Source: Advenella kashmirensis W13003
GTDB taxonomy: Bacteria; Pseudomonadota; Gammaproteobacteria; Burkholderiales; Burkholderiaceae_B
Length of the DNA stretch: 64,000 nucleotides
Direction of reading: 5' to 3'
Assembly (NCBI RefSeq): GCF_000506985.1
Contig: NZ_KI650979.1
Coordinates: forward strand, 1,798,710 to 1,862,709
Part shown: piece by piece, positions 33,692-55,485 of the stretch
How positions within the stretch are numbered: the stretch's first letter is position 1
How the letters are laid out: every line of letters starts with the position of its first letter
Notes under the pieces: generated by a model
The model's database searches: none
The model's input: the letters and a program-made list of their open reading frames with translations, nothing else
What the model was told of the DNA's origin: nothing
Position numbers and translations under genes: made by a program

Positions 33692-34870
33692 ATGATGTCG
33701 AATTCATCTCCCCGTTTATCACTCTGGATGCGTCTGGCAGTAATCGGTTCTGCTGTTCTGGTCGTTGTCGCACTGGCCGCATTCTGGTATGCGTCCCGTC
33801 TTGCCGGAAAGTCACCGACCAAAAAGAATGGCGACGCGGTGGTCGTAACAATCCGCGACAACGTGTGTGATCCCAACGAAATCACCGTCCCCGCCGGTCG
33901 CACCACGTTTACCATCGTGAACCAGTCCCAGCGGGCGCTCGAATGGGAAATCCTGGATGGTGTCATGGTCGTCGAAGAACGCGAAAATATTGCGCCGGGC
34001 TTTTCGCAAAGTATGACGGTCAAGCTTGAGCCTGGCAAGTTTGATATTACCTGCGGTCTCCTGACCAATCCTCGCGGCGTTCTTCACGTGACGCCGTCAG
34101 AAGCGTCTGCAGCCGAAGCAGCCCGTCCTTCACTGGTCAGGTATGTCGGTGCGCTCGCAGAATACAAAGTATATATGGCGCTCGAATCCAAAGCGCTTGC
34201 TCGGGCTGCAGAAGAACTGGCGGCGGCGATCAAGGCCGGCGATTTGTCGCGGGCGCAGGCTGCGTACCCGCAAGCCCATCAGGGCTATAAGCGCCTGGAA
34301 CCCGCGGCTGCGCTTTTTTCTGATCTGGATACCCGTCTGGAAGCGGGGGCGCAATATTTTGAAAAGCGGGAAAGTGATCCCCAATTCATGGGTTTTCACC
34401 GGATCGAATATGGCCTGCAGGAAAGCAGCTTGACGGATCTGGCTCCGGTGGCCGACCAGTTGACTGCAGATCTTGGCACACTGAGCACACGTCTGCAAAG
34501 CCAGGGCCTGCAACCACAACAATTAATCGGTTCGGCCGCAAAAGTGCTGCGGCGTAACGCGGATGATCTCGCAACACAAGGGAACAAGACCGATGACAGG
34601 TATCGCGTGTCGGACCTGCAAGGTACGCTGGAGGGGACCCGGAAAATTGCCGACCTGCTGCGTCCGTTGCTGAACAAGGCGGCGCCGGCCCTGCAAAAAA
34701 ACCTCGATCAACATTTTACTGAGCTGGACGCAGCCCTGGGCGCACAACGCAAGGACGGACAGCCCGACCCCGTCGTGCTGTCCAAAACGCAGCAGGACAC
34801 CTTGTTACAACCCCTGCGTGCGTTAACCGACGATTTCGAGCGGATGAACGCGGCGTTAGGACTTGAGTAG
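33692..34870 (+). CDS. efeO: EfeO-type iron-binding protein (cupredoxin + M75 imelysin-like domains)
   Basis: A 392-residue protein with a membrane anchor or signal at residues 10-32 (LAVIGSAVLVVVALAAFWYA). A cupredoxin domain covers about 48-130 (VTIRDNVCDPNEITVPAGRT, with a late TCGLL cysteine), and the M75/imelysin-like helical domain covers about 140-390 with the iron-site motif GFHRIEYGL near residue 232. This is the full-length EfeO layout. It sits between the permease and the EfeB peroxidase and should capture periplasmic iron. Confidence 0.9.
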   Translation: MMSNSSPRLSLWMRLAVIGSAVLVVVALAAFWYASRLAGKSPTKKNGDAVVVTIRDNVCDPNEITVPAGRTTFTIVNQSQRALEWEILDGVMVVEERENIAPGFSQSMTVKLEPGKFDITCGLLTNPRGVLHVTPSEASAAEAARPSLVRYVGALAEYKVYMALESKALARAAEELAAAIKAGDLSRAQAAYPQAHQGYKRLEPAAALFSDLDTRLEAGAQYFEKRESDPQFMGFHRIEYGLQESSLTDLAPVADQLTADLGTLSTRLQSQGLQPQQLIGSAAKVLRRNADDLATQGNKTDDRYRVSDLQGTLEGTRKIADLLRPLLNKAAPALQKNLDQHFTELDAALGAQRKDGQPDPVVLSKTQQDTLLQPLRALTDDFERMNAALGLE

Positions 34871-34880
34871 TCATACTGTC

Positions 34881-36206
34881 ATGGCAACAAAAAATCACCT
34901 TACCCACAATGTCAATGAAACCGAACCGACATCTCGCGCGCGTCGCCGCGTGTTGGGCGGACTTGGCGCGGCCGGGGCTGCTCTGACCGGCCTGTCGATC
35001 GCCAACGCCCAGACGGCCGCTCGTTCAGACAACGCGCAGGCGGCCGATGCGCCGCAGATTACACACACAGAAGACCGGGTTCCGTACCTGGGCCAGCATC
35101 AGGCGGGTGTGGTTACCCCGCATCCGGTGGCCGGTATGGTCGTCTCTTTCGGCGTGCTCGCCCAGAACCGGGACGAACTGGAACAGATGTTTCGCACGCT
35201 CACCCAGCGCATTGCCTTTTTGACACAGGGTGGCACGCCGCCTGCGCTGGACCCGAAACTGCCGCCGGCTGACTCCGGTATTCTTGGGCCCGTCGTGCGC
35301 CCGGCAGGCCTGACCATCACGGTTTCGGTCGGCGCATCGCTCTTTGACGAGCGGTTTGGCCTGGCAGCGCACAAACCCCGGCACCTGCAGGCGATGACCG
35401 GTTTCCCCAATGACGCACTTGACGCCTCCCTGTGCCACGGAGATTTGTCCATACAGTTCTGTGCCAATACGGGCGACGTCATTCTGTACGCATTGCGCGA
35501 TATCATCAAAACCATGCCCGGGTTTCTTCTGGTGAACTGGAAGCAGGAGGGCATCGTGCCGCCGGTCAAGCCGGTCGCAGGCAAAAGGCCCGGCACAGCA
35601 CGCAATTACCTGGGATTCCACGATGGGTCGGCCAATCCTAATTCCAGCGATGCAGAGCAGATGGACAAAATCGTCTGGGTCCAGGCCGACAGTGGGGAGC
35701 CCGGCTGGGCGATCGGTGGCAGCTATCAAGTGGTGCGGATCATTCGCAACTTCGTTGAGCGCTGGGACCGTACTCCCTTGCAGGAGCAGGAAGTTATTTT
35801 TGGGCGGGTCAAAGCCACAGGCGCCCCTCTTGATGGGGGTAGCTCTGAATTCGACGTGCCCAATTACGAAAAAGACCCCAAGGGGCAGCTCACTTCGTTT
35901 GATTCCCATATCCGGCGCGCCAACCCCCGTACAGCCGAATCGCAGGCCAATCTGATCCTGCGTCGCCCCTTCAACTATTCCAACGGCGTGACCAAATCAG
36001 GCCAGCTGGACATGGGGTTGCTGTTCATCTGCTACCAGGCAGATTTGCAAAAAGGGTTCATTACTGTGCAAAAGCGTCTGGATGGCGAACCACTGGAGGA
36101 ATATATCAAACCGGTAGGTGGAGGCTATTTCTTCACCCTGCCGGGCGTCCGGGACGAGCAAGACTGGCTCGGCCGGGCGCTTTTGGAAAAAAGTCGTGTT
36201 TCTTAA
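34881..36206 (+). CDS. efeB: Tat-exported Dyp-type haem peroxidase
   Basis: 441 residues from the ATG at 34881; a TTG at 34863 overlapping efeO is less likely. The N-terminus carries a twin-arginine signal (SRARRRVLGGLGAAGAALTG) and cleavage after IANAQ. The Dyp domain shows GFHDGSANP (the GxxDG motif with catalytic Asp) and RDEQDWLG near the C-terminus; a proximal histidine is expected in the SFDSHIRRANPR segment. EfeB uses a haem cofactor in the periplasm in iron acquisition from ferrous iron or haem. It is in the efe operon between two M75 genes. Confidence 0.92.
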   Translation: MATKNHLTHNVNETEPTSRARRRVLGGLGAAGAALTGLSIANAQTAARSDNAQAADAPQITHTEDRVPYLGQHQAGVVTPHPVAGMVVSFGVLAQNRDELEQMFRTLTQRIAFLTQGGTPPALDPKLPPADSGILGPVVRPAGLTITVSVGASLFDERFGLAAHKPRHLQAMTGFPNDALDASLCHGDLSIQFCANTGDVILYALRDIIKTMPGFLLVNWKQEGIVPPVKPVAGKRPGTARNYLGFHDGSANPNSSDAEQMDKIVWVQADSGEPGWAIGGSYQVVRIIRNFVERWDRTPLQEQEVIFGRVKATGAPLDGGSSEFDVPNYEKDPKGQLTSFDSHIRRANPRTAESQANLILRRPFNYSNGVTKSGQLDMGLLFICYQADLQKGFITVQKRLDGEPLEEYIKPVGGGYFFTLPGVRDEQDWLGRALLEKSRVS

Positions 36207-42307: not shown

Positions 42308-42640
42308 CTATTTCTCACCGCCCGTTGCATGGACAACATAGGCCGCAATAGCATCGATGGATGCCTCATCCAGGGAGTCGGCAAAGGAGGGCATGGCCCC
42401 CATGCCTTCCTGCAATACTTTTTTGATCCGTGCCGCATCGGGTTTCAGTTCATCCAGGTCAGGGCCGATGGTTCCGGTTGAGCCCGAATCTTTCAGAGTA
42501 TGGCACACGGCACAGGCAGGAGCTGCCTCCGATATGAACAGGGCTTTCCCCTTTTCCAACTGGGGATCGGCTGCAAAACTGGCGCCTGCCACGCCCACCC
42601 ATAAGACTGCCGCTGCAGCCGACGATACAACGTGCTTCAT
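42308..42640 (-). CDS. sorB: periplasmic class I cytochrome c, SorB-like subunit of sulfite dehydrogenase
   Basis: A 110-residue protein: signal peptide at residues 1-24 (ending ASFA), one haem-binding motif CAVCH near residues 44-48, and a distal methionine in MGAMPSF near residue 84. It lies 8 bp after the molybdenum sulfite oxidase-type gene, as sorB lies after sorA. It would take electrons from the molybdenum subunit and pass them to the respiratory chain. Confidence 0.87.
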   Translation of the reverse strand: MKHVVSSAAAAVLWVGVAGASFAADPQLEKGKALFISEAAPACAVCHTLKDSGSTGTIGPDLDELKPDAARIKKVLQEGMGAMPSFADSLDEASIDAIAAYVVHATGGEK

Positions 42641-42648
42641 TTTTTTCC

Positions 42649-43878
42649 TCAGGCGACTTTGACTGACACCATGTGGTCGCGCCAGCTATTGTTGATATAA
42701 CCGCGATTATTTTCACGGCGTGCTTCGGGCTGGCTATCTCCAGCTTCATTGGTGGCGCGGCAGGCAAGTTCGTGCGTGCCAGCAGCCAGGTCGGCGCTAA
42801 AGACGAATTCACGCCAAGCGTACTTGCCCAGATCAGGTCCGACGAACTCGGCCTTTTGCCATTCTTTACCACCGTCGACGGAAACTTCAATCGACTTGGC
42901 TGCGCTCATCCCGCCCATGGCAATACCACTGATCTGTACACGCCCGGCCGTAACGGTTTGATCCGGGTCGGACGGGAAGTTGATCCAGGACTTGACCGGT
43001 AATTCCCAAATGGAATCCTGGCTGGGACTGGGCTTCTCGCCTACCGGCGTCCATCGATAGCTGGTTTGCTGTATTTTGGCTGGCGACTGCTCTTTGGTGA
43101 ATGCCAAGTGCTTGATGTACTTGATCGAGTTCACGCCGGTATAGCCAGGCACGATGATGCGCAACGGTCCGCCATGCGCCAGCGGCAGGGACTGGCCGTT
43201 CAGTTCCCACGCCAGAATGGCATCTTCGACAGCGGAAATCGGCACCGAGCGTTCGACGCGGATAAGGTTGGGATCCAGGCCTTGCGGAATGGGTTCGCCA
43301 CCTGTACTGGTCATGTAGACCATGCCGTCCGCCATGCCTCCCACCGCTTCCAGCAGTGCCTTGACAGGAACACCGGTAAAAATGACACAACCGGCGGCGC
43401 CTACGGTCCATTGGGTGCCGCTGGGCTTGTGTGGAAACCAGGCCCGGCCGTTGCCTGAACACTGCAGAACCATGGGTACGGCCGCCAGGCCCAGGGTTTT
43501 TAGCTCGGCTACGGTGAAACTGCGTGGCTTGGCAACGCCGCTGACTTCAAGCGTCCAGCTGTCGGGCTCTTTCATCATGCTGGCGTCGGTCGGAGGTGCC
43601 ACGTTGTTGCGGACGAACAGGCGATCTGTTGGCGTGATAACACTGTTTCCAAAGGCAGTACGCCGGGTTTCTATCGTGTTCGCGCTATGGACGATCATGC
43701 TGTCGGCATCTTTCCAGTTGGCGTAGCCGGGCAAGGGTTTGGCGGTTGAGCTCTTGGCGGCACCGGCGTCTGCGGTGCCGAGATCGGCGCGGGCTACACC
43801 GGACAGCCCCGCCATTGCAGCAATACTACCCGCTGATATCAGCATTTGACGGCGGCCTGCATTAGTCAGTTTTTCCAT
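42649..43878 (-). CDS. sorA: Tat-exported molybdenum sulfite dehydrogenase catalytic subunit
   Basis: 409 residues from the ATG at 43878, which follows AGGAGG by 6 nt; earlier in-frame starts lack a ribosome site. A twin-arginine signal is present (AGRRQMLISAGSIAAMAG). The molybdopterin domain shows the cysteine that binds molybdenum, Cys140 in LQCSGNGR, and VPGYTGVNSIKYIKHL; the C-terminal Mo-co dimerisation domain follows from about 290. Operonic with the cytochrome c gene, this is a SorAB-type sulfite:cytochrome c oxidoreductase. SoxC is the alternative, but no sox genes are near. Confidence 0.9.
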   Translation of the reverse strand: MEKLTNAGRRQMLISAGSIAAMAGLSGVARADLGTADAGAAKSSTAKPLPGYANWKDADSMIVHSANTIETRRTAFGNSVITPTDRLFVRNNVAPPTDASMMKEPDSWTLEVSGVAKPRSFTVAELKTLGLAAVPMVLQCSGNGRAWFPHKPSGTQWTVGAAGCVIFTGVPVKALLEAVGGMADGMVYMTSTGGEPIPQGLDPNLIRVERSVPISAVEDAILAWELNGQSLPLAHGGPLRIIVPGYTGVNSIKYIKHLAFTKEQSPAKIQQTSYRWTPVGEKPSPSQDSIWELPVKSWINFPSDPDQTVTAGRVQISGIAMGGMSAAKSIEVSVDGGKEWQKAEFVGPDLGKYAWREFVFSADLAAGTHELACRATNEAGDSQPEARRENNRGYINNSWRDHMVSVKVA

Positions 43879-44072
43879 TGTCATCCTCCTGATGTTTTTA
43901 TATCTATGAGTTATATGTTTATGCTTTCTTAAAAGATAATAGCACAAATGAAATAAATATCAGCTAAATGTAAGGTTATGGAGGAACTGCAGATGGGAGG
44001 AGCATCGCGCGATTATTTCGCCTCCTTATCGGAATTATGATCGGCAGTGAAACTTGCATGGATCTTAAAACC

Positions 44073-44142: not shown

Positions 44143-45612
44143 TTATGAAAAATTGTTATAGAGCGTTTTTTTTCTGAGGTATCCTTCGATCCCGTGTTTG
44201 CCGTCTTCTCCCCCGATGCCGCTGAGCTTGTAGCCTGCATGAAAGGCATGTACGCTTTCTCCAGCGCCGCGGTTTATAAATATTTCGCCAAACTGCAGCT
44301 CTGCAACACACCGCATAATGTTTCGGTTGTTCTGCGTAAACACGTAGGCGGACAAACCATATTTGCTTTGGTTTGCATAGGTGATCGCCTCGGTCAGGGA
44401 AGATACTTTCATGATGGGTGCAATGGGCCCGAAGGTTTCTTCCTGCATGATTTCCAGATCGTTCGATGTGACTTCCAACACTGCCGGATAAAACCAGTTT
44501 CCATTGGTGTGTGCGGGGTCAGGCCCGGAACTGTCGTTTAAGTTCAGTAATACCTTCGCCCCCGAGCGACATGCACGCTCCAATATTGCATGCAGCTTGC
44601 TGACCTCAGGCTGGCTGGCTCTGGGTCCCAAATCCACTTGTTCCAGGGGATCACCAGTCCTCAAATTGCGAACTGCCTCGGTAAACTTTGCTACAAATTT
44701 GTCATAAATTGCCTCTTCTATATACATACGATCGTTTGCGGTACACACCTGACCGCCATTGACAAATTTCGCTTGAATTGCGGCCTGCACGGCCTTGTCC
44801 AGATCTGCATCCGCCAATACGATAAAAGGGGCTTTTCCACCCAGTTCCAGACGAATGGTTTTTATATCATGGCTGGCGGCCGCGTAAATTTCGCGACCCG
44901 CCCTCACGCTTCCTGTCATGGAAATCAGGCTGACGTCCGGGTGTTTCACCAGATGCTCGCCAACTGTGCGGCCTGCTCCGGTGACAACGTTCAGGACTCC
45001 GGCCGGGAGGCCAGCTTTGCGGGCAAGTTCCGCAAGGACGAGCGCGGTCAGAGGGGTCAGTTCATGCGGCTTGATGACAATTGTATTTCCGGTGACTAAT
45101 GCGGGGCCCACCTTTCTGGTAAACAACGCTACGGGGAAATTCCAGGCTGTGATTCCTGCGACAACTCCATAAGGAACACGATGAATCATAATGTGTTCAT
45201 CCCTGGCGTCGCCAGGCAGTATTTCTCCTTCCAGGCGACGAGCTGCTTCGGCCGCGTGGCGCAGAAACGCGCTGGAAAAAGATACTTCTGCCCGTGCTTC
45301 GAGTAGTGGTTTCCCCTGTTCTTGCGTGAGAAGCAGGGCAAGATCCTCAAGGTTTGCATCAATGAGGTCGGCAAAGGCATATAGATAGCGTGCGCGTTCG
45401 GGAGCAGGCGTTGCAGACCATGCCGGAAATGCAGTTAGAGCCGCAGAGACCGCCGAATCTGTCTGGGATACTGAGGTTTCATTGATTTGACCAATTTCTT
45501 TGCCATTGACCGGATTGCTCACTGCAATGGTGTTGCCGCTTGCGTATATCCATTCGTTCTTGATGAAAATATGCTGTTTTGCAATACCGAAGCGTTCCAA
45601 TAATTTATTCAT
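44143..45612 (-). CDS. NAD(P)-dependent aldehyde dehydrogenase (AldA-like)
   Basis: A 489-residue ALDH with TAWNFPVALFTRKVGPAL and KPHELTPLTAL (cofactor binding), the general-base glutamate in LELGGKAPFIV (about 258) and the catalytic cysteine in NGGQVCTANDR (about 292). It resembles lactaldehyde/glycolaldehyde-type dehydrogenases. The start follows AGGAGAGAGTC. It is the last gene of the operon that begins at 50939, where it may oxidise the aldehyde released by the aldolase-like pair (49342-50939). Confidence 0.92.
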   Translation of the reverse strand: MNKLLERFGIAKQHIFIKNEWIYASGNTIAVSNPVNGKEIGQINETSVSQTDSAVSAALTAFPAWSATPAPERARYLYAFADLIDANLEDLALLLTQEQGKPLLEARAEVSFSSAFLRHAAEAARRLEGEILPGDARDEHIMIHRVPYGVVAGITAWNFPVALFTRKVGPALVTGNTIVIKPHELTPLTALVLAELARKAGLPAGVLNVVTGAGRTVGEHLVKHPDVSLISMTGSVRAGREIYAAASHDIKTIRLELGGKAPFIVLADADLDKAVQAAIQAKFVNGGQVCTANDRMYIEEAIYDKFVAKFTEAVRNLRTGDPLEQVDLGPRASQPEVSKLHAILERACRSGAKVLLNLNDSSGPDPAHTNGNWFYPAVLEVTSNDLEIMQEETFGPIAPIMKVSSLTEAITYANQSKYGLSAYVFTQNNRNIMRCVAELQFGEIFINRGAGESVHAFHAGYKLSGIGGEDGKHGIEGYLRKKTLYNNFS

Positions 45613-45626
45613 GACTCTCTCCTGAT

Positions 45627-46406
45627 TTATCGCCCCTCGAAGGCCGGCTTGCGTTTTTCCTGAAAGGCTTTGCGTCCTTCGATCCTGTCATGACTGTCTC
45701 GAAGAATGCCAAATACAAAAGCTTCGTGCTTCACTGCGTGATTCAACGGCATATCCATTCCATCTTCCACCAGTTTTTTAATTGCACGTACCGAAAGCGG
45801 CGCATTTGCAGCAATGCGCTCCGCAATGGCCTGTGCCTCAGACATCAAATCGTTTTGCTCTACGAGATGACTGATAAGCCCGATACGATGAGCCTCGCAA
45901 GCGTCTACGATGGAGCCGGTCAGGAGCATATGCATGGCGTTGGCTAAGCCGATCATTCTTGGCAGACGCTGTGTCCCGGCCCCTCCCGGAATACTGCCGA
46001 TACACACTTCAGGCAGGCCGAATTTTGCGTTTTTACTGGCAATGCGAAGATCACATGCCAATGCCAATTCAAGCCCTCCACCGATGGCAAAACCGTTGAT
46101 GGCACACACGATGGGGATTCTTACCTGGTCCATTCCATCGAGCAAGTGCGGGGTTGTTTCGGCGCCAAATGTCAACTGCGCAATGCCTTCTTTTGGGGGC
46201 ATGGTTTTTTTCAGGTCGGATCCCGTGCAAAAGGCCCGTGCTCCTGATGCGGTCAGAATCACGCAACGCAAGGCCGGGTCCTGGCTGATTTTTTTCCAGC
46301 AATCGTGTAACTGCAACAAGGTCTCGGGGTCGATTGCATTCATGGCCTCCGGACGATTTAATGTGATAATGGCAATTGCATTCTTGACTTGATAAAGTAA
46401 GCTCAT
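45627..46406 (-). CDS. enoyl-CoA hydratase/isomerase (crotonase family)
   Basis: A 259-residue crotonase. The oxyanion-hole segments are visible: SGARAFCTGSDLKK near residue 57 and FAIGGGLELALACDLRIAS near 106-125. Of the two usual catalytic glutamates, one is in PEVCIGSIPGGAGTQRLP near 136. It should hydrate an enoyl-CoA to a 3-hydroxyacyl-CoA in the operon pathway. It starts 20 bp after the CoA-transferase gene stop, with AAGGAG upstream. Confidence 0.9.
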   Translation of the reverse strand: MSLLYQVKNAIAIITLNRPEAMNAIDPETLLQLHDCWKKISQDPALRCVILTASGARAFCTGSDLKKTMPPKEGIAQLTFGAETTPHLLDGMDQVRIPIVCAINGFAIGGGLELALACDLRIASKNAKFGLPEVCIGSIPGGAGTQRLPRMIGLANAMHMLLTGSIVDACEAHRIGLISHLVEQNDLMSEAQAIAERIAANAPLSVRAIKKLVEDGMDMPLNHAVKHEAFVFGILRDSHDRIEGRKAFQEKRKPAFEGR

Positions 46407-46426
46407 TGTTTCTCCTTGATATCGGA

Positions 46427-47620
46427 CTATTTGACAATGTTCGTTGCGTAATAAGTTTCAATTTCCTCGGCAGAAAATCCGCTTTTTTCAAGGATTTCTC
46501 TTGAGTGTTGTCCGCAGAATGGCGGCATATCATGTGGTTCTGCATTCGATAACATGCTGTTTACCGGAAAACCGACTGTTTTGATGTGGCCGAAATCCGG
46601 ATGGTCGAAACTGGTATAGATATTGTTGTGAAGGGCTTGCGGGTGGGTTTCGACATCCGCATATTGCGCGACCTTTGCGCAGAGGATGTCGGCACTGCGC
46701 AATCGCTCCATCCAGTACGCGCTTTCTTTCTTGAGGAAGGCGTCATTCAGAATTTGTCTCATGAATTGTCGGTTTTCCACTCTCGACGACGAGCTGGCCA
46801 GCCTTTCGTCATGTGCAAGTTCGGCAATGTCCAACGCATCACACAAGCGAGCCCAGCGGTCGCCGTTGTAGGCGGCGACCATGATCCAGCCATCTTGCGT
46901 CTGGAATGATTCGTTGGGGGCCGAGTAGGGCGCTGCGCTGCCGAGGGGCTGCGGCAGGCTTTGCTCATGGAAAAAATTTGTCAGCGTCGTCTGTTGCAGC
47001 ACCAGAGCGGCGTTCATCAGGCTGATGTCTATGTGTCCGCCTGCTCCATTTTTTTGTTTTTCCAGCAGTTTGGCCAGAATGCTCATGCAGGCGACATAAC
47101 CGGTTGTCACATCGACGATTGGTGCCTGCACTTTGCATGGCTCCTGTACATCCGGATGGCCTATCAGGCTCATGAGGCCCGTGTCCGCTTGCAGAATCCC
47201 GTCTACGCCCGGGCGCTCGGAATAGGGACCAGATTGTCCATAGGCTGAGACGGAACAATAAATCAAATCCGGCCGGGTTTCGGCCAGTCGTTCGTAGCCC
47301 AGTTCCAATCGATCCATCACGCCGGGTCTCAGGCTCTCAACCACGATATCTGCCTTCGTGGACAGTTGTCTGGCCAGATCGCGTCCCTCTTCTTGTTTCA
47401 GGTCAATCACAATGGACTGCTTGTTGCGATTGAATCCGTAATAAGCAGTGCAGTCGTCTCCGATCCAGCCTGGCCCCAGTTTGCGTCCAAGTTCTCCGCC
47501 CGGGGGTTCTACTTTAATGATTTCTGCTCCCATGTCTCCCAGCAGCATGGTGCACATGGGTCCGGCTCCTACGTGAGTAAAGTCAAGTACTTTGACGCCT
47601 TCAAGAATCTTCCTAAACAT
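46427..47620 (-). CDS. class III CoA-transferase (CaiB/BaiF family)
   Basis: 397 residues from the ATG at 47620; an in-frame TTG at 47638 is possible. The N-terminus LEGVKVLDFTHVGAGPMCTMLLGDMGAEIIKVE is typical, as is the catalytic aspartate region PGVDGILQADTGLMSLIG near 135-150. These enzymes move CoA from a donor thioester to a carboxylic acid. In this operon it would activate the imported acid. It lies 8-26 bp downstream of the Bug receptor gene, linking uptake with activation. Confidence 0.92.
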   Translation of the reverse strand: MFRKILEGVKVLDFTHVGAGPMCTMLLGDMGAEIIKVEPPGGELGRKLGPGWIGDDCTAYYGFNRNKQSIVIDLKQEEGRDLARQLSTKADIVVESLRPGVMDRLELGYERLAETRPDLIYCSVSAYGQSGPYSERPGVDGILQADTGLMSLIGHPDVQEPCKVQAPIVDVTTGYVACMSILAKLLEKQKNGAGGHIDISLMNAALVLQQTTLTNFFHEQSLPQPLGSAAPYSAPNESFQTQDGWIMVAAYNGDRWARLCDALDIAELAHDERLASSSSRVENRQFMRQILNDAFLKKESAYWMERLRSADILCAKVAQYADVETHPQALHNNIYTSFDHPDFGHIKTVGFPVNSMLSNAEPHDMPPFCGQHSREILEKSGFSAEEIETYYATNIVK

Positions 47621-47646
47621 ACATGCATTTCCATTCAATTGACTTA

Positions 47647-48636
47647 TTACTGGGAGGACAAATGATTGTCTTCAGCGACTTTCTTCCATAAGGCAAGATC
47701 GCTGTCGACAATTTTTCCGAGTTCTTCTGGCGTGCTTTTGCTGATTTCAAACCCTTGTTCCGACAGTTTTTTCTTTACGTCTGGCGTATCCAGGGCATCA
47801 TTGATCGCGGCGTTCAGCGAGTTAATTTTGTCTCTTGGCGTGCCGGCCGGTGCCATGACGCTAAACCACAGAGATGCGTTGTATTGATTCATATTCCCTT
47901 CTTTGACTTCGCTGAAGGCGGGGACGTCTGGCAGTACCGAAGTCCGTTTGCTTCTCGCCGTGCCCAGGGCGCGCAGAGTACCGTTCTGGATTTGAGGAAG
48001 GACGGACCCCATGGAGCCGAAAGTCGACTGGATCTGCCCCCCGATGACGTCGGCTACCGATGGGCCTGTACCTTGGTAGGGGACATGCGTGATATCAATT
48101 TTGGCCAGACCTGCCAACAATTCTCCTGCCAGGTGCTGGGGCACGCCAATACCCGGACTGCTATAGTTGATTTCGTTTGGATGTTCTCTTGCGTATTGAA
48201 TGAATTCTTCCATTGTTTTGTAAGGCATTTTCGGATTCACGACAAAGATCATCGGAACTTCGGCAATCATGCCGACAGGTGCCAGGTCTTTCTGAATGTC
48301 GAATGACGTTTTCATTCCCAATGCGGGTTGCGTGGTGATCTGGCTACCTGCAATCAGTATGGTGTTTCCGTCCGGCTTCGCATTGGCGACGAATGCCGTA
48401 CCGATATTGCCGCCGGCACCTGGTTTGTTATCAACAATCACATTACGATGAAGTTTTTCTGCCAGATGGGGAGCTAGCGTACGCGCGAGAATGTCGTTTC
48501 CCCCACCCGGCGTGAACGGCACAACAAATCTTACGGGGGCGCTGTCCTGCGCAAAGGAAGGGGTAAGTGGTGTAAGAAAAGTGGTTATTACAAATGCAGC
48601 GCGCAACAGTCCCACTCGAGAATGATTCCCGATCAT
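47647..48636 (-). CDS. Bug/TctC-family periplasmic solute receptor
   Basis: A 329-residue receptor with a signal peptide at 1-30 (ITTFLTPLTPSFAQ) and the hallmarks RFVVPFTPGGGNDILAR and VDNKPGAGGNIGTA. The start follows AACAGGAGACAAAA. It lies between a GntR gene and the CoA-transferase gene in the 50939-44143 operon, so its ligand is probably the acid that the CoA-transferase activates. Confidence 0.9.
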   Translation of the reverse strand: MIGNHSRVGLLRAAFVITTFLTPLTPSFAQDSAPVRFVVPFTPGGGNDILARTLAPHLAEKLHRNVIVDNKPGAGGNIGTAFVANAKPDGNTILIAGSQITTQPALGMKTSFDIQKDLAPVGMIAEVPMIFVVNPKMPYKTMEEFIQYAREHPNEINYSSPGIGVPQHLAGELLAGLAKIDITHVPYQGTGPSVADVIGGQIQSTFGSMGSVLPQIQNGTLRALGTARSKRTSVLPDVPAFSEVKEGNMNQYNASLWFSVMAPAGTPRDKINSLNAAINDALDTPDVKKKLSEQGFEISKSTPEELGKIVDSDLALWKKVAEDNHLSSQ

Positions 48637-48683
48637 TTTTGTCTCCTGTTTGGTTTTTAGGCTAAGGGGTTACCTGATGATAG

Positions 48684-49328
48684 TCAGGGAGTTTCATAGA
48701 GCCGTCTTCGGCCCGCTATCAGGTGCTGTCTGAAGCTTTCGATCACACCTGGAGTATCATGATTCAGTATTTTTTCCAGGATTTCGCTGTGTTCATCATG
48801 GATTTGATGGAAACGGGCGGGTTCGCCAAGGTCCTGAAAGTTAAATGGCGTTTTGGCCCACAGCACGCGTACAAACTGCAAGGTTTGCGGGCTGTTTCCG
48901 AGCTCGTACAGTCTGAAATGAAACTTGACGTTGGCTGTGCGGATCGCTATATAATCCCGGGCCTCAAGCGCTTTGACATATTGCTTATGCAAAGACGTCA
49001 ATTCCAGCAGGTCGGTATCCTGAATGTTATCCATGGCTCGTTCCACAAGAAATGTCTCAAGCATCAATCGCAGTTCATAAATTTCCAGTACGTCAGTACG
49101 TGATTGCTCGGGAATGTAGATCCCCTTGTTCGGGTATACCTTCACATACCCTTCCATTTCAAGCGCTTTCAACGCTTCACGCACCGGCGTAATCGATACG
49201 CCAAGTCTTTCTGCAATATCCTGCTGCCTGAGGCGTTCCCCCCGCTGGTATTCGCCCGCAATGATCTGTTCGCGTATTTGTTCGATAACCTGATCTTGCT
49301 TGGTCAGAATTGGGCGGGAGTAGTCCAT
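48684..49328 (-). CDS. GntR-family regulator, FCD subfamily
   Basis: 214 residues from the ATG at 49328; upstream in-frame starts extend into the DUF35 gene and were not used. The winged helix is at about residues 10-70 (LRQQDIAERLGVSITPVREA), and the FCD domain follows with typical histidine/arginine positions (VKFHFRLYELG, SFRQHLIAGRRR). It is embedded in the catabolic operon. A palindrome at 50977-50990, before the first gene, is a candidate operator. Confidence 0.88.
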   Translation of the reverse strand: MDYSRPILTKQDQVIEQIREQIIAGEYQRGERLRQQDIAERLGVSITPVREALKALEMEGYVKVYPNKGIYIPEQSRTDVLEIYELRLMLETFLVERAMDNIQDTDLLELTSLHKQYVKALEARDYIAIRTANVKFHFRLYELGNSPQTLQFVRVLWAKTPFNFQDLGEPARFHQIHDEHSEILEKILNHDTPGVIESFRQHLIAGRRRLYETP

Positions 49329-49341
49329 AAAAATTGAAATC

Positions 49342-49752
49342 CTAGTCGGAAAGCTCGAATCGAGGGAGCACGAATCCGTCCGGCATCGTTGCGTAGACCA
49401 GTCTGACTTTACGACCAATCCAGGATGCTTCAGGTTGTCGGCCTTGCAAATTCGAGATTATAACTGGACCTTCTTCCAAACGAACGGCAATTACATTGTG
49501 CGGCGCCGGGTACGCTTCTAGGTACTGGCGGTGGAAGATGACCCAGGACAGAATTTCTCCTTTTCCCGAGACGGGCACCCAGTCGAGGTCGTCAGACAAT
49601 GTCTGATCGCATACGGGGGTGGGTGGGTACAGATACTTTCCCGAGGTCCGACTGCGCTGTAATTTCATGTTGCCATCTCGAATGCTTTCCCATAGCGGCT
49701 CATCGTATAGCCCCATAACGGGGGGGGGTGTTTGTGCAATAACATTCGTCAT
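49342..49752 (-). CDS. DUF35 / OB-fold acyl-CoA-associated protein with a degenerate zinc ribbon
   Basis: 136 residues; the start at 49752 is chosen over 49758 because GGGAA is 7 nt upstream. It follows the family layout: helix (EPLWESIRDGN), rubredoxin-like ribbon, then OB fold (WVPVSGKGEILSWVIFHR, VIAVRLEEGPVIISNLQG). Of the four zinc cysteines usually found (RCxxCG and CPxC), only one remains (PPTPVCDQT). DUF35 proteins pair with thiolase-fold enzymes, including steroid side-chain aldolases. Its start overlaps the thiolase-fold gene stop by a few bases. Confidence 0.85.
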   Translation of the reverse strand: MTNVIAQTPPPVMGLYDEPLWESIRDGNMKLQRSRTSGKYLYPPTPVCDQTLSDDLDWVPVSGKGEILSWVIFHRQYLEAYPAPHNVIAVRLEEGPVIISNLQGRQPEASWIGRKVRLVYATMPDGFVLPRFELSD

Positions 49753-49754
49753 AA

Positions 49755-50939
49755 TCATTTCCCGTAAATAATGGAGACCGCCTTGCCGGCGACGTCTGAC
49801 GTGTAATGAACCCGATTGCAATTATTGACTTGACGATCACCGCATTCACCCCGCAGCTGCCGTACCGATTCAATCTGGTGAGCCCATCCTTGCATATAGC
49901 TTTCCGACAAATGTCCACCGCTCGTATTGATGGGAAGCTTACCGCCTGGGCCCATACCGCTCTCAGCGAGAAACTTTGCGGCTTCACCTTTCCTGCAATA
50001 GCCATACCCTTCCAGGGCCAGTGGGATATGCACCGAAAAACTGTCGTAGACCTGCAGGATGTCTACGTCTTCGGGTCCGATGCTCGCCATGGCGAAGGCC
50101 TGTCTGGCGCAATCTTCCTGAGCAGGGTGATAGAACTCGGTCAGTCTGGGCTCCAGACTGGTCGCGTTGCTGTTTAAATCCCGGCGGCCCAGGCCGTCGA
50201 TATATACGGGCTTTTGCTTCATTGTCTTGGCTTTGTCTGCAGTTGTTACTATGAGCGCCACTCCGCCATCATTGATCATGCAATAGTCATACAGGCGCAG
50301 TGGTTCGCAGATATACGGTGCTTCAAGATAATCTTCGATTGTTATTCGCTTGCGCATGACCGCATTGGGGTTTTGGGACGACCATTCGCGTTGCGCGACG
50401 GCGACTCGAGCCAGATCCGATTCATCGAATCCGGTGGCATGTTTATATGCCTGAAATGTGAGTGCATAGAGCGCTCCCTGAGAGGTCAGCCCCCAGGGCG
50501 CATGGTAAATATAGGAAAGAAATGCATCCCCGCCCATTGCCTGAGGCCCGCCGTATTGAATTTGGCCGGAACGTTGATTGTTTCCGTAGACCAGGGCAAT
50601 CGTTTCTGCCAAGCCCGATTCTATGGCCGTTACTGCCTGCGCGACCGATAGCACCGCATCTGCCTGGTCTCCCCATCTGGGATCAATACCAAGAATTTCA
50701 GCCATTCTTTCATAGGCAGTCGTAGGCCCAACAATCAGACCGTCCAGTTCAGTTTTCTCAATTCCTGCATCGTCCAATGCATTGGCTAGCGCCCCGGCGG
50801 CATATCCGTAGCTATCGCTGGGTTTTTCATTGTTACGCACGCGCGCCCAATCGTTTACCCAATCCGTGTGTCCGATGCCGACGATGGCGGCGGAGCGGCG
50901 CGCCGGGGTTGTATCTGTATCTACACTTTGATTACTCAT
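49755..50939 (-). CDS. thiolase-fold protein lacking the catalytic cysteine, probable Ltp2-type retro-aldolase
   Basis: 394 residues from the ATG at 50939 (GGAGGATGACA upstream). The thiolase fold is clear (RRSAAIVGIGHTDW; DVDILQVYDSFS). Three changes set it apart from thiolases: no cysteine occurs before residue 211, so the nucleophile near residue 90 is absent; the GHP motif is replaced by SESYMQG at 345-351 (Tyr348); and LEGYGYC is present at 309-315. These are features of SCPx/Ltp2-like aldolases that work with DUF35 proteins and cut 3-hydroxyacyl-CoA by retro-aldol. The DUF35 gene is directly downstream. It is the first gene of the operon. Confidence 0.82.
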   Translation of the reverse strand: MSNQSVDTDTTPARRSAAIVGIGHTDWVNDWARVRNNEKPSDSYGYAAGALANALDDAGIEKTELDGLIVGPTTAYERMAEILGIDPRWGDQADAVLSVAQAVTAIESGLAETIALVYGNNQRSGQIQYGGPQAMGGDAFLSYIYHAPWGLTSQGALYALTFQAYKHATGFDESDLARVAVAQREWSSQNPNAVMRKRITIEDYLEAPYICEPLRLYDYCMINDGGVALIVTTADKAKTMKQKPVYIDGLGRRDLNSNATSLEPRLTEFYHPAQEDCARQAFAMASIGPEDVDILQVYDSFSVHIPLALEGYGYCRKGEAAKFLAESGMGPGGKLPINTSGGHLSESYMQGWAHQIESVRQLRGECGDRQVNNCNRVHYTSDVAGKAVSIIYGK

Positions 50940-50976
50940 TGTCATCCTCCGTGTCGATACTATGCCATGCATTAGG

Positions 50977-54507: not shown

Positions 54508-55485
54508 ATGTCTACGCCAAAAATCGCTGTTATTGATGATTATCAGAATATTGCTTACAAGTGCGCTGACTGGGAGCCGGTCCGGTCCCAGGCACAGGTA
54601 ACTGTCTTTAACAAGCCTTGGACCAGCGAAGATGACCTGGTCGATAAGCTCGGGGAATTCAATATTATTATGTTGTTGCGCGAGCGCACCGCTTTCCCGG
54701 CGCGAGTGCTCGAAAGGCTGCCGAATCTCAAATTTATTGCCATGACGGGGGCGCGAACCAGCACGCTGGATCTGGAGGCGTGTGCCAAACTGGGCATCCT
54801 GGTGTCCTACACCAGCTCACACCCATCCACACCAACGGCTGAATTGGCCATTGCCTTGATGCTCTCGTGTGCAAGAGCGTTGCCTCAGGCAATGCAAAAT
54901 ATTAAAGACGGGCGCTGGCAGGAAGATCTACCGCTCGGTTCGGCATTGGAAGGCAAATGCCTTGGGATCGTCGGACTTGGCAAGTTAGGATCCCGGGTCG
55001 CCCGTATCGCCCAGGCCATTGGAATGGACACGGTGGCCTGGAGCCAGAATCTGACAACGGAAAAAGCCAGTGAGCACGGGGTCAAACGTGTTGAAAAATC
55101 AGAACTGTTCGCGCTTGCCGACGTAGTCTCGGTCCATTTGACGCTGTCTGACAGAACGCGCGGCGTGATCGGGCGGGAAGAATTGTCACAAATGAAGCCG
55201 GGAGCAATTCTCGTGAATACGTCGCGCGGACCTTTGGTAGATGAAGCGGCCTTGCTGGATGCGCTTGAATCCAAACGCATTATCGCGGGGCTGGACGTGT
55301 ACGACGTTGAACCTTTGCGAGAGAACCACCCGTTCCGGTCGCTTCCCAATGTCATCGCGACGCCGCACCTGGGATACGTTGTGGACGATGCGTTGCGGCA
55401 TCTCTATCAGGAGAACGTGGCGAACGTTCTTGCTTACCTTGCCGGTACGCCGCAGAGGCTGAAAAATCTGGCTGCCGGCTCGTGA
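54508..55485 (+). CDS. D-2-hydroxyacid dehydrogenase (NAD-dependent)
   Basis: A 325-residue enzyme of the 2-hydroxyacid dehydrogenase family. The NAD motif is GIVGLGKLGSRVA at about 151-163. The catalytic arginine is in NTSRGPLVDE (about 236), the glutamate in DVYDVEPL (about 265) and the histidine in ATPHLGYV (about 284). It reduces a 2-oxo acid or oxidises the D-hydroxy acid. The start follows GGGAGTCAGG. It lies between the Bug remnant and an MFS transporter, so it may once have had a Bug receptor as partner. Confidence 0.9.
   Translation: MSTPKIAVIDDYQNIAYKCADWEPVRSQAQVTVFNKPWTSEDDLVDKLGEFNIIMLLRERTAFPARVLERLPNLKFIAMTGARTSTLDLEACAKLGILVSYTSSHPSTPTAELAIALMLSCARALPQAMQNIKDGRWQEDLPLGSALEGKCLGIVGLGKLGSRVARIAQAIGMDTVAWSQNLTTEKASEHGVKRVEKSELFALADVVSVHLTLSDRTRGVIGREELSQMKPGAILVNTSRGPLVDEAALLDALESKRIIAGLDVYDVEPLRENHPFRSLPNVIATPHLGYVVDDALRHLYQENVANVLAYLAGTPQRLKNLAAGS

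Follow-up and report, generated by a model that had tools for sequence, protein, structure and literature searches.

Retro-aldol cleavage of coenzyme A (CoA) thioesters by a thiolase-fold enzyme is already known as a reaction type, as are the fold and its DUF35 partner subunit. In the Ltp2-ChsH2 system of steroid degradation (TcLtp2, PDB 6ok1), a thiolase-fold protein without the nucleophilic cysteine acts after an enoyl-CoA hydratase and carries two catalytic tyrosines; published work names Tyr294 of its YDHF motif as the base, the histidine of the motif as the oxyanion donor and Tyr344 as the acid (PMC12329534), and reports that the Ltp2 reaction of Comamonas requires DUF35 (PMC12502768). 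The order hydratase, aldolase, aldehyde dehydrogenase is established in bile-acid degradation as Shy-Sal-Sad (PMC8399759). There, CtSal (9myr), also without the thiolase cysteine, uses Tyr302 and Cys304 and has a glutamine at the second tyrosine position (PMC12329534), the hydratase and DUF35 form one protein, and a CoA ligase activates the acid (PMC12329534, PMC8399759). The subject of the present analysis is an operon of Advenella kashmirensis W13003, located in a stretch of 64,000 nucleotides (contig NZ_KI650979.1, positions 1,798,710 to 1,862,709; hereafter the window), which probably encodes a short catabolic route dependent on CoA, with retro-aldol cleavage, not thiolysis, as the reaction that breaks the C-C bond. 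This reading is preferred because a cysteine-less, Ltp2-like thiolase-fold/DUF35 pair is linked to a class III CoA-transferase and often to a crotonase.

Relatives of the proposed aldolase were sought with two peptide patterns in one genome per species of 84,980 species. The 459 pattern hits gave 445 confirmed relatives (any match at tblastn E <= 1e-3), mostly in Burkholderiales and Alphaproteobacteria. Locus counts refer to the best 80 of these 445 (62-89% identity), and residue counts to 84 relatives, which are open reading frames (ORFs) from 72 of the 80 loci, six of the 90 ORFs in the cluster having been left out for a length of at least 600 residues. Alignment with the true thiolases 7yvy and BbsB places Gln92 at the nucleophilic cysteine, in a loop that is five residues shorter, while Tyr298 replaces the histidine of HDxF and Tyr348 that of GHP; the cysteine and both histidines of catabolic thiolases of the SCP2/BbsB type are thus all absent. 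An earlier note on this DNA, made from the letters alone, had described the protein as lacking the nucleophile, and the alignment bears this out: a reactive cysteine was looked for at the thiolase site and found neither here nor in any of the 84 relatives, in which the column holds Gln (66), Gly (13) or another residue (5). Tyr298 and Tyr348 align with Tyr294 and Tyr344 of TcLtp2 and, together with His343, are present in 84 of 84 relatives. The residues of the Sal type (Cys in YDCY, Gln at the second tyrosine) do not occur in the W13003 protein, which has YDSF and Tyr348.

Comparison with Ltp2-like aldolases and thiolases, which the earlier note had proposed, places the protein nearer to the former. 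With the family profile, the PDB search returns 4u4e, 6ok1, 9myr and 7yvy in that order; 4u4e is an uncharacterised "thiolase" that also lacks the nucleophilic cysteine. Searching with the single sequence gives 4u4e, then TcLtp2, then thiolase 7yvy about level with CtSal. The NCBIfam models nearest to the protein ("acetyl-CoA acetyltransferase", "lipid-transfer protein" and "thiolase domain-containing") all score far under their cut-offs. The AlphaFold2 model of the large subunit (mean predicted local distance difference test, pLDDT, 87; predicted template modelling score, pTM, 0.89) matches 4u4e (E 7e-35), 6ok1 (E 9e-34) and 9myr (E 2e-32), with thiolases ranking lower. In a maximum-likelihood tree, the YDSF and YDNF clades together are sister to TcLtp2 (99/95), and CtSal, the 4u4e group and the thiolases fall outside this grouping. 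The tree comprises 55 rows, namely every second YDSF/YDNF row, every third row of a second pair described below, the window protein and five references.

The smaller protein shows the same kinship. A gap of 2 bp separates its gene from that of the aldolase; in all 80 loci, a DUF35 gene follows the aldolase gene immediately. The 136-residue product is free-standing, with no fusion to a MaoC-type hydratase in either ORF calls or domain search, and its model (pLDDT 94) finds 6ok1 (6ok1_D, ChsH2; E 6e-11) and 9myr (Shy; E 2e-9) as first structure matches, other DUF35 proteins being lower. It is unlikely, on these comparisons, that the pair functions as a thiolase or as a PhlABC-type C-acyltransferase despite the absent cysteine. 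The fold is the same, the complexes BbsAB, PhlABC and that of HMG-CoA synthase have DUF35 partners too, and the near tie of 7yvy and CtSal in the single-sequence search fits such an enzyme; the replacement of the cysteine and the HDxF and GHP histidines by Gln, Tyr and Tyr, and a nucleophile column without cysteine in 84 of 84 relatives, speak against it.

The aldolase may well work like Ltp2, although it differs from the Ltp2-ChsH2 system in several respects: YDSF stands in place of YDHF and GGH in place of GGQ, the DUF35 protein is free-standing with a single zinc cysteine, a crotonase replaces the MaoC hydratase, and a CoA-transferase is present. The enzyme was not filed as Ltp2 because three features were looked for and not found, namely the oxyanion histidine, the four-cysteine zinc finger and a fusion of MaoC to DUF35. 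That the pair is a true Ltp2/Sal2 ortholog, acting on steroid or bile-acid side chains in a steroid degrader, is very improbable, even though its nearest characterised relatives are steroid aldolases and the KshA model has one partial match in W13003. This match spans 58 of 207 positions and scores 21.7 bits (23.4 with frame neighbours), the cut-off being 23.3. Identity to TcLtp2 is 29%, while the Ltp2 proteins of C. testosteroni and M. tuberculosis share 63% identity (PMC12502768); the hydratase is a crotonase and not a MaoC-DUF35 protein; and the annotated neighbours include no recognised steroid gene, the genome itself having been searched for KshA and not for other steroid genes.

Linkage to CoA activation recurs across genera. 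Gene context was counted by BLAST of mechanically called ORFs against the proteins of the window and of two related loci (L047 and L039), some loci ending at contig ends. A class III CoA-transferase gene lies within 5 kb of the aldolase in 63 of the 80 loci, compared with 9.8% expected, a chance level derived from the W13003 genome alone (52 matches). A simple version of the cluster, in which crotonase, a single CoA-transferase, aldolase and DUF35 occur together, is shared by Glaciimonas, Paracandidimonas, Pandoraea, Polaromonas and Advenella; its CoA-transferases outside Advenella are 47-49% identical to that of W13003, whose best paralog reaches 38%. The 4.85-Mb W13003 genome has 52 class III CoA-transferase and 41 crotonase matches.

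The crotonase is linked to the aldolase in many genomes. Both of its glutamates (in GGGLELA and GLPEV), which we take to be the catalytic pair of crotonase-type hydratases, align with those of solved hydratases. At an ortholog threshold of E <= 1e-68, with at most seven and at most nine candidates scored per genome, 27 of 268 family genomes hold an ortholog: 22 of 23 genomes with the aldolase and 5 of the 245 without it (Fisher p 2e-26, which overstates independence because the species are related). In 20 of the 22 genomes with both genes, no more than 12 kb separates them, and 27 of the 33 crotonase matches near non-Advenella aldolases are 51-65% identical, where the best W13003 paralog has 42%. 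Four of the five genomes with crotonase only (G007, G096, G101 and G226; five loci) hold a different thiolase-like/DUF35 pair, 37-38% identical and of the YDNF type, beside the crotonase or, in L148, about 3 kb off; in the fifth (G255), the crotonase is on a 3-kb contig, too short to judge. These displacing pairs make up a third subclade (L144-L148), with YDNF and GGNLSESYMEGW, in otherwise similar clusters; the subclade is in neither the 84-relative set nor the tree. A second tyrosine-type pair in the same slot is the strongest sign that the cleavage step belongs with the hydratase there.

Gene kinds resembling those of the operon are found in the ferulate breakdown operon fcs-ech-vdh-aat. 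On this analogy, the crotonase alone could hydrate and cleave, as a feruloyl-CoA hydratase-lyase does, with the thiolase-like pair doing something else, and the occurrence of the pair without a nearby crotonase agrees with this. Such a division of labour is nonetheless quite unlikely, given that the crotonase retains both hydratase glutamates and has best solved relatives named hydratases or dehydratases, and it leaves unexplained why a different tyrosine-type pair can take over next to the crotonase.

Several observations weigh against a retro-aldol route of this composition. At the active site, the oxyanion histidine of the Ltp2 motif is absent, a serine taking its place in W13003, and no relative has it (YDSF in 71 of the 84, YDNF in 13). 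Three of the four zinc cysteines of the DUF35 protein are lost. The tree program warns of long branches at the reference sequences, and in the displacing pairs the second tyrosine is present in four of the five loci and replaced by Phe in L148. The crotonase link has its exceptions: the two genes are 4.8 Mb apart in G042 and on different contigs in G259, G199 has the aldolase without a crotonase ortholog, and a crotonase match within 10 kb is found in 34 of the 80 loci (28 of them with at least 51% identity). Near the nearest aldolases outside Advenella (69-78% identity; Caballeronia, Stella, Roseomonas and others), a crotonase lies within 10 kb in 4 of 22 loci, or in 2 of the 14 with both flanks of at least 9 kb, and the crotonases of Polaromonas, Glaciimonas, Paracandidimonas and Pandoraea are only 41-47% identical, barely above the W13003 paralog. 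A Bug gene is found within 5 kb in 12 of the 80 loci and an aldehyde dehydrogenase (ALDH) gene within 10 kb in 10. Finally, the retro-aldol activity of the pair is a prediction from sequence and models.

The zinc cysteines vary among the relatives as well. Of 82 related DUF35 proteins (L061-L140), 64 have all four, and the remaining 18 have three (2), two (13) or one (3). Since the losses are scattered over several genera, they may have occurred more than once, and the zinc-poor DUF35 proteins can, like the YDSF and YDNF variants, serve as natural mutants of the Ltp2 active site.

The earlier note had read the operon as import, CoA transfer, hydration, cleavage and oxidation, a scheme whose centre is supported and whose ends do not generalise. 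Because the nearest relatives outside the genus mostly have no crotonase nearby (a CoA-transferase being within 5 kb in 19 of these 22 loci), the constant core is made up of CoA-transferase, aldolase and DUF35, to which a large subset adds hydration; the Bug receptor and the ALDH are local additions. The pathway would then begin with the binding of a carboxylic acid by the Bug protein in the periplasm. The class III CoA-transferase would put CoA on the acid, probably from succinyl-CoA, and the crotonase would hydrate the alpha,beta double bond to a beta-hydroxyacyl-CoA, which relatives without a crotonase could obtain in another way, for example by CoA transfer to a hydroxy acid. In the cleavage step, Tyr298 would take the proton of the beta-hydroxyl, the C-C bond would break, and protonation of the acyl-CoA enolate by Tyr348 would leave two products, a shorter acyl-CoA and either an aldehyde or a ketone. 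In Advenella, the ALDH would oxidise the aldehyde, and the GntR protein would regulate the operon.

Whether the ALDH acts on the product depends on what the aldolase releases. It is possible, and compatible with the first four steps, that the retro-aldol reading is right and the product is a ketone, the ALDH then serving another purpose or a side product. Enzymes of the Ltp2 type cleave tertiary alcohols (PMC8399759), an ALDH gene is near only 10 of 80 relatives, and some Bordetella and Achromobacter clusters hold a gene of the Fe-ADH family; on the other side, the W13003 ALDH gene follows 14 bp behind the crotonase gene and is retained, at 83% identity, in Advenella sp. S44. For the ALDH, the closest model is PRK10090 (482 bits, below its cut-off of 500), which we take to be AldA, and its nearest PDB chain is 6j75, "aldehyde dehydrogenase A".

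The clues to the substrate, which come from the relatives of Bug, CoA-transferase and ALDH, are weak. The CoA-transferase matches CoA_transf_3 over its full length (2e-121, 1-366 of 366 in Pfam), and the Asp of its IVDVTTG motif, presumably the catalytic residue of class III CoA-transferases, aligns with that of 9br6. As 9br6 is a succinate-hydroxymethylglutarate CoA-transferase, and enzymes of this kind are nearest to the W13003 protein, a dicarboxylate substrate and succinyl-CoA as donor are weakly suggested. A small alpha-branched unsaturated dicarboxylic acid is our tentative suggestion for the substrate. Nothing supports the cinnamate- or terpenoid-like acid of the earlier note. Its observation that acyl-CoA dehydrogenase and CoA ligase are missing is true of the seven genes, CoA ligases not having been searched for genome-wide, but unsaturation of the substrate does not follow from the missing dehydrogenase, as clusters with related genes in Bordetella and Achromobacter carry one. 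An acyl-CoA dehydrogenase of that type has 24 matches in the W13003 genome (E <= 1e-20), the best at 39% identity, so there is no close ortholog. A more far-reaching proposal, and a rather doubtful one, is that a tyrosine-type aldolase/DUF35 pair, usually supplied by a CoA-transferase and in many cases by a hydratase, replaces dehydrogenation and thiolysis in a general cleavage of non-steroid acyl-CoAs, here acting on 2-alkylidene-succinates and releasing succinyl-CoA; as succinyl-CoA would be the donor of the transferase, the route would prime itself without ATP. Breakdown of thioether acids as in Variovorax was considered and set aside: the available passages of PMC6370202 name no such aldolase pair, and nothing in the stretch of Advenella sp. 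S44 fetched around its operon matches a sulfite-oxidase-like gene found downstream, a judgement made without comparing sequences.

Two further systems invite comparison. Benzylsuccinate beta-oxidation (BbsEF, BbsH, BbsAB) also combines a class III CoA-transferase with a thiolase-fold/DUF35 pair, and the pathway includes a crotonase. It proceeds through a keto intermediate and thiolysis, where retro-aldol cleavage is proposed for W13003, and BbsB retains the thiolase cysteine and both histidines. The likeness extends, in the Bordetella and Achromobacter relatives, to two CoA-transferase genes and an acyl-CoA dehydrogenase. IpfE of ibuprofen degradation is a DUF35 protein. Together with IpfD, it carries the name thiolase in print, and the pair is credited with releasing propionyl-CoA (PMC9195938); likened here by description only, IpfDE is a possible non-steroid precedent, differing in a substrate derived from ibuprofen.

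The arrangement, which the earlier note had supposed to be new, is not confined to W13003 but recurs in other genomes, and its order of hydratase, aldolase and ALDH is that of Shy-Sal-Sad (PMC8399759). No report of a CoA-transferase/crotonase/Ltp2-like set was found in the literature searched, where most subscription papers lay outside coverage. Retro-aldol chemistry is likely for the W13003 protein, whose family is a wide one. If true, thiolase-fold retro-aldolases would be a wider catabolic tool and not mainly steroid enzymes, and the clusters around the 80 relatives would gain a concrete C-C bond-breaking step.

Several types of cluster surround the aldolase pair, which therefore appears to have been built into several pathways. 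Larger clusters at several Bordetella and Achromobacter loci contain two CoA-transferase genes, a crotonase, an acyl-CoA dehydrogenase and the Fe-ADH-family gene; Bug and IclR genes are present too, as is MmgE/PrpD or PrpF. In alphaproteobacterial clusters, of which L113 is an example, PcaI-like and PcaD-like genes occur in addition, together with a second pair. In place of a crotonase, the pair of Caballeronia glathei has around it genes for a gluconolactonase-family protein, a short-chain dehydrogenase, an amidohydrolase and an AldA-type ALDH, as well as a second pair of the YDNF type; there, the beta-hydroxyacyl-CoA may come directly from a hydroxy acid. The second cysteine-less thiolase-like/DUF35 pair found within the same cluster at many alphaproteobacterial loci (L109-L138, e.g. 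L113:2488-4270) belongs to the PRK08142 group, carries YDSFT and NNHP motifs and is placed near 4u4e in the tree; its thiolase-like proteins have Gly at the nucleophile column in 18 of 18 cases and no Cys. In G042, IclR, two CoA-transferases and a crotonase form a cluster (L150) with no aldolase match in the fetched 16 kb, the aldolase being 4.8 Mb away. Among seven plasmid records with a relative, four have it annotated as "thiolase family protein", all four less than 45% identical, and three have no annotation there; aldolase genes of this kind are easily mislabelled.

The composition of the W13003 operon is as the earlier note had described it: all seven ORFs are intact and lie in the order given there, from 50939 to 44143 on the minus strand, and a Pfam search confirms all seven gene kinds (Table 1). 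With the start codons chosen here, the gaps between genes are 2-47 bp, and a single transcription unit is therefore likely; the first gene could alternatively start at an in-frame ATG that lies 33 bp farther upstream, at 50972. The search for inverted repeats upstream of the operon turned up one AT-rich palindrome of 9 bp, for which no operator function is claimed.

Table 1. Genes of the W13003 operon in order of transcription, with positions in the window.
Feature	Position	Strand	Residues and relatives
Thiolase-fold protein without Cys, proposed catalytic subunit of a retro-aldolase	49755..50939	-	Tyr298 in YDSF, Tyr348 in GGHLSESYMQGW, Gln92 at thiolase Cys position
DUF35/OB-fold partner subunit	49345..49752	-	Zinc ligands: one of four Cys left (Cys48)
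GntR/FCD transcriptional regulator, likely local	48684..49325	-	Domain match; function suggested by position
Bug/TctC periplasmic receptor	47647..48636	-	Nearest solved: terephthalate-binding protein 8hka, then 2dvz and Bug27 2qpq
Class III CoA-transferase	46427..47620	-	Nearest solved: succinate-hydroxymethylglutarate CoA-transferase; IVDVTTG Asp retained
Crotonase-family enoyl-CoA hydratase	45627..46406	-	Both Glu positions of solved hydratases present
Aldehyde dehydrogenase, near AldA (lactaldehyde dehydrogenase) group	44143..45612	-	Domain and PDB matches

Among ten Advenella genomes searched, two, one of them that of W13003 (12 contigs, completeness 100), contain a protein close to the aldolase, at 100% and 89% identity; in the rest, matches reach at most about 38%. 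As the operon also has a G+C content of 51.6%, compared with 55.4% for the window, it looks like an accessory unit, perhaps an acquired one. Advenella sp. S44 has the identical order of seven genes, with proteins 83-97% identical, and this conservation, along with the recurrence of the core in other genera, indicates an arrangement that is more than chance.

A few other genes of the window were noted. A D-2-hydroxyacid dehydrogenase gene (54508-55485) was considered as an extra member of the operon and remains a lead; it has relatives (42-52%) in the related clusters L040/L093, L048/L120, L050, L082, L088, L111, L118, L146 and L149, and a best W13003 paralog at 38%, and nothing matching it turned up in the stretch fetched from Advenella sp. 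S44. Just downstream of the operon and on the same strand are genes for a molybdopterin sulfite-oxidase-like protein and a small cytochrome c (42308-43881), neither of which has a match in the stretch fetched around the operon of Advenella sp. S44. Farther off, and unrelated to the operon, imelysin/cupredoxin and Dyp-type peroxidase genes (33692-36206) resemble the EfeO and EfeB iron-uptake set.

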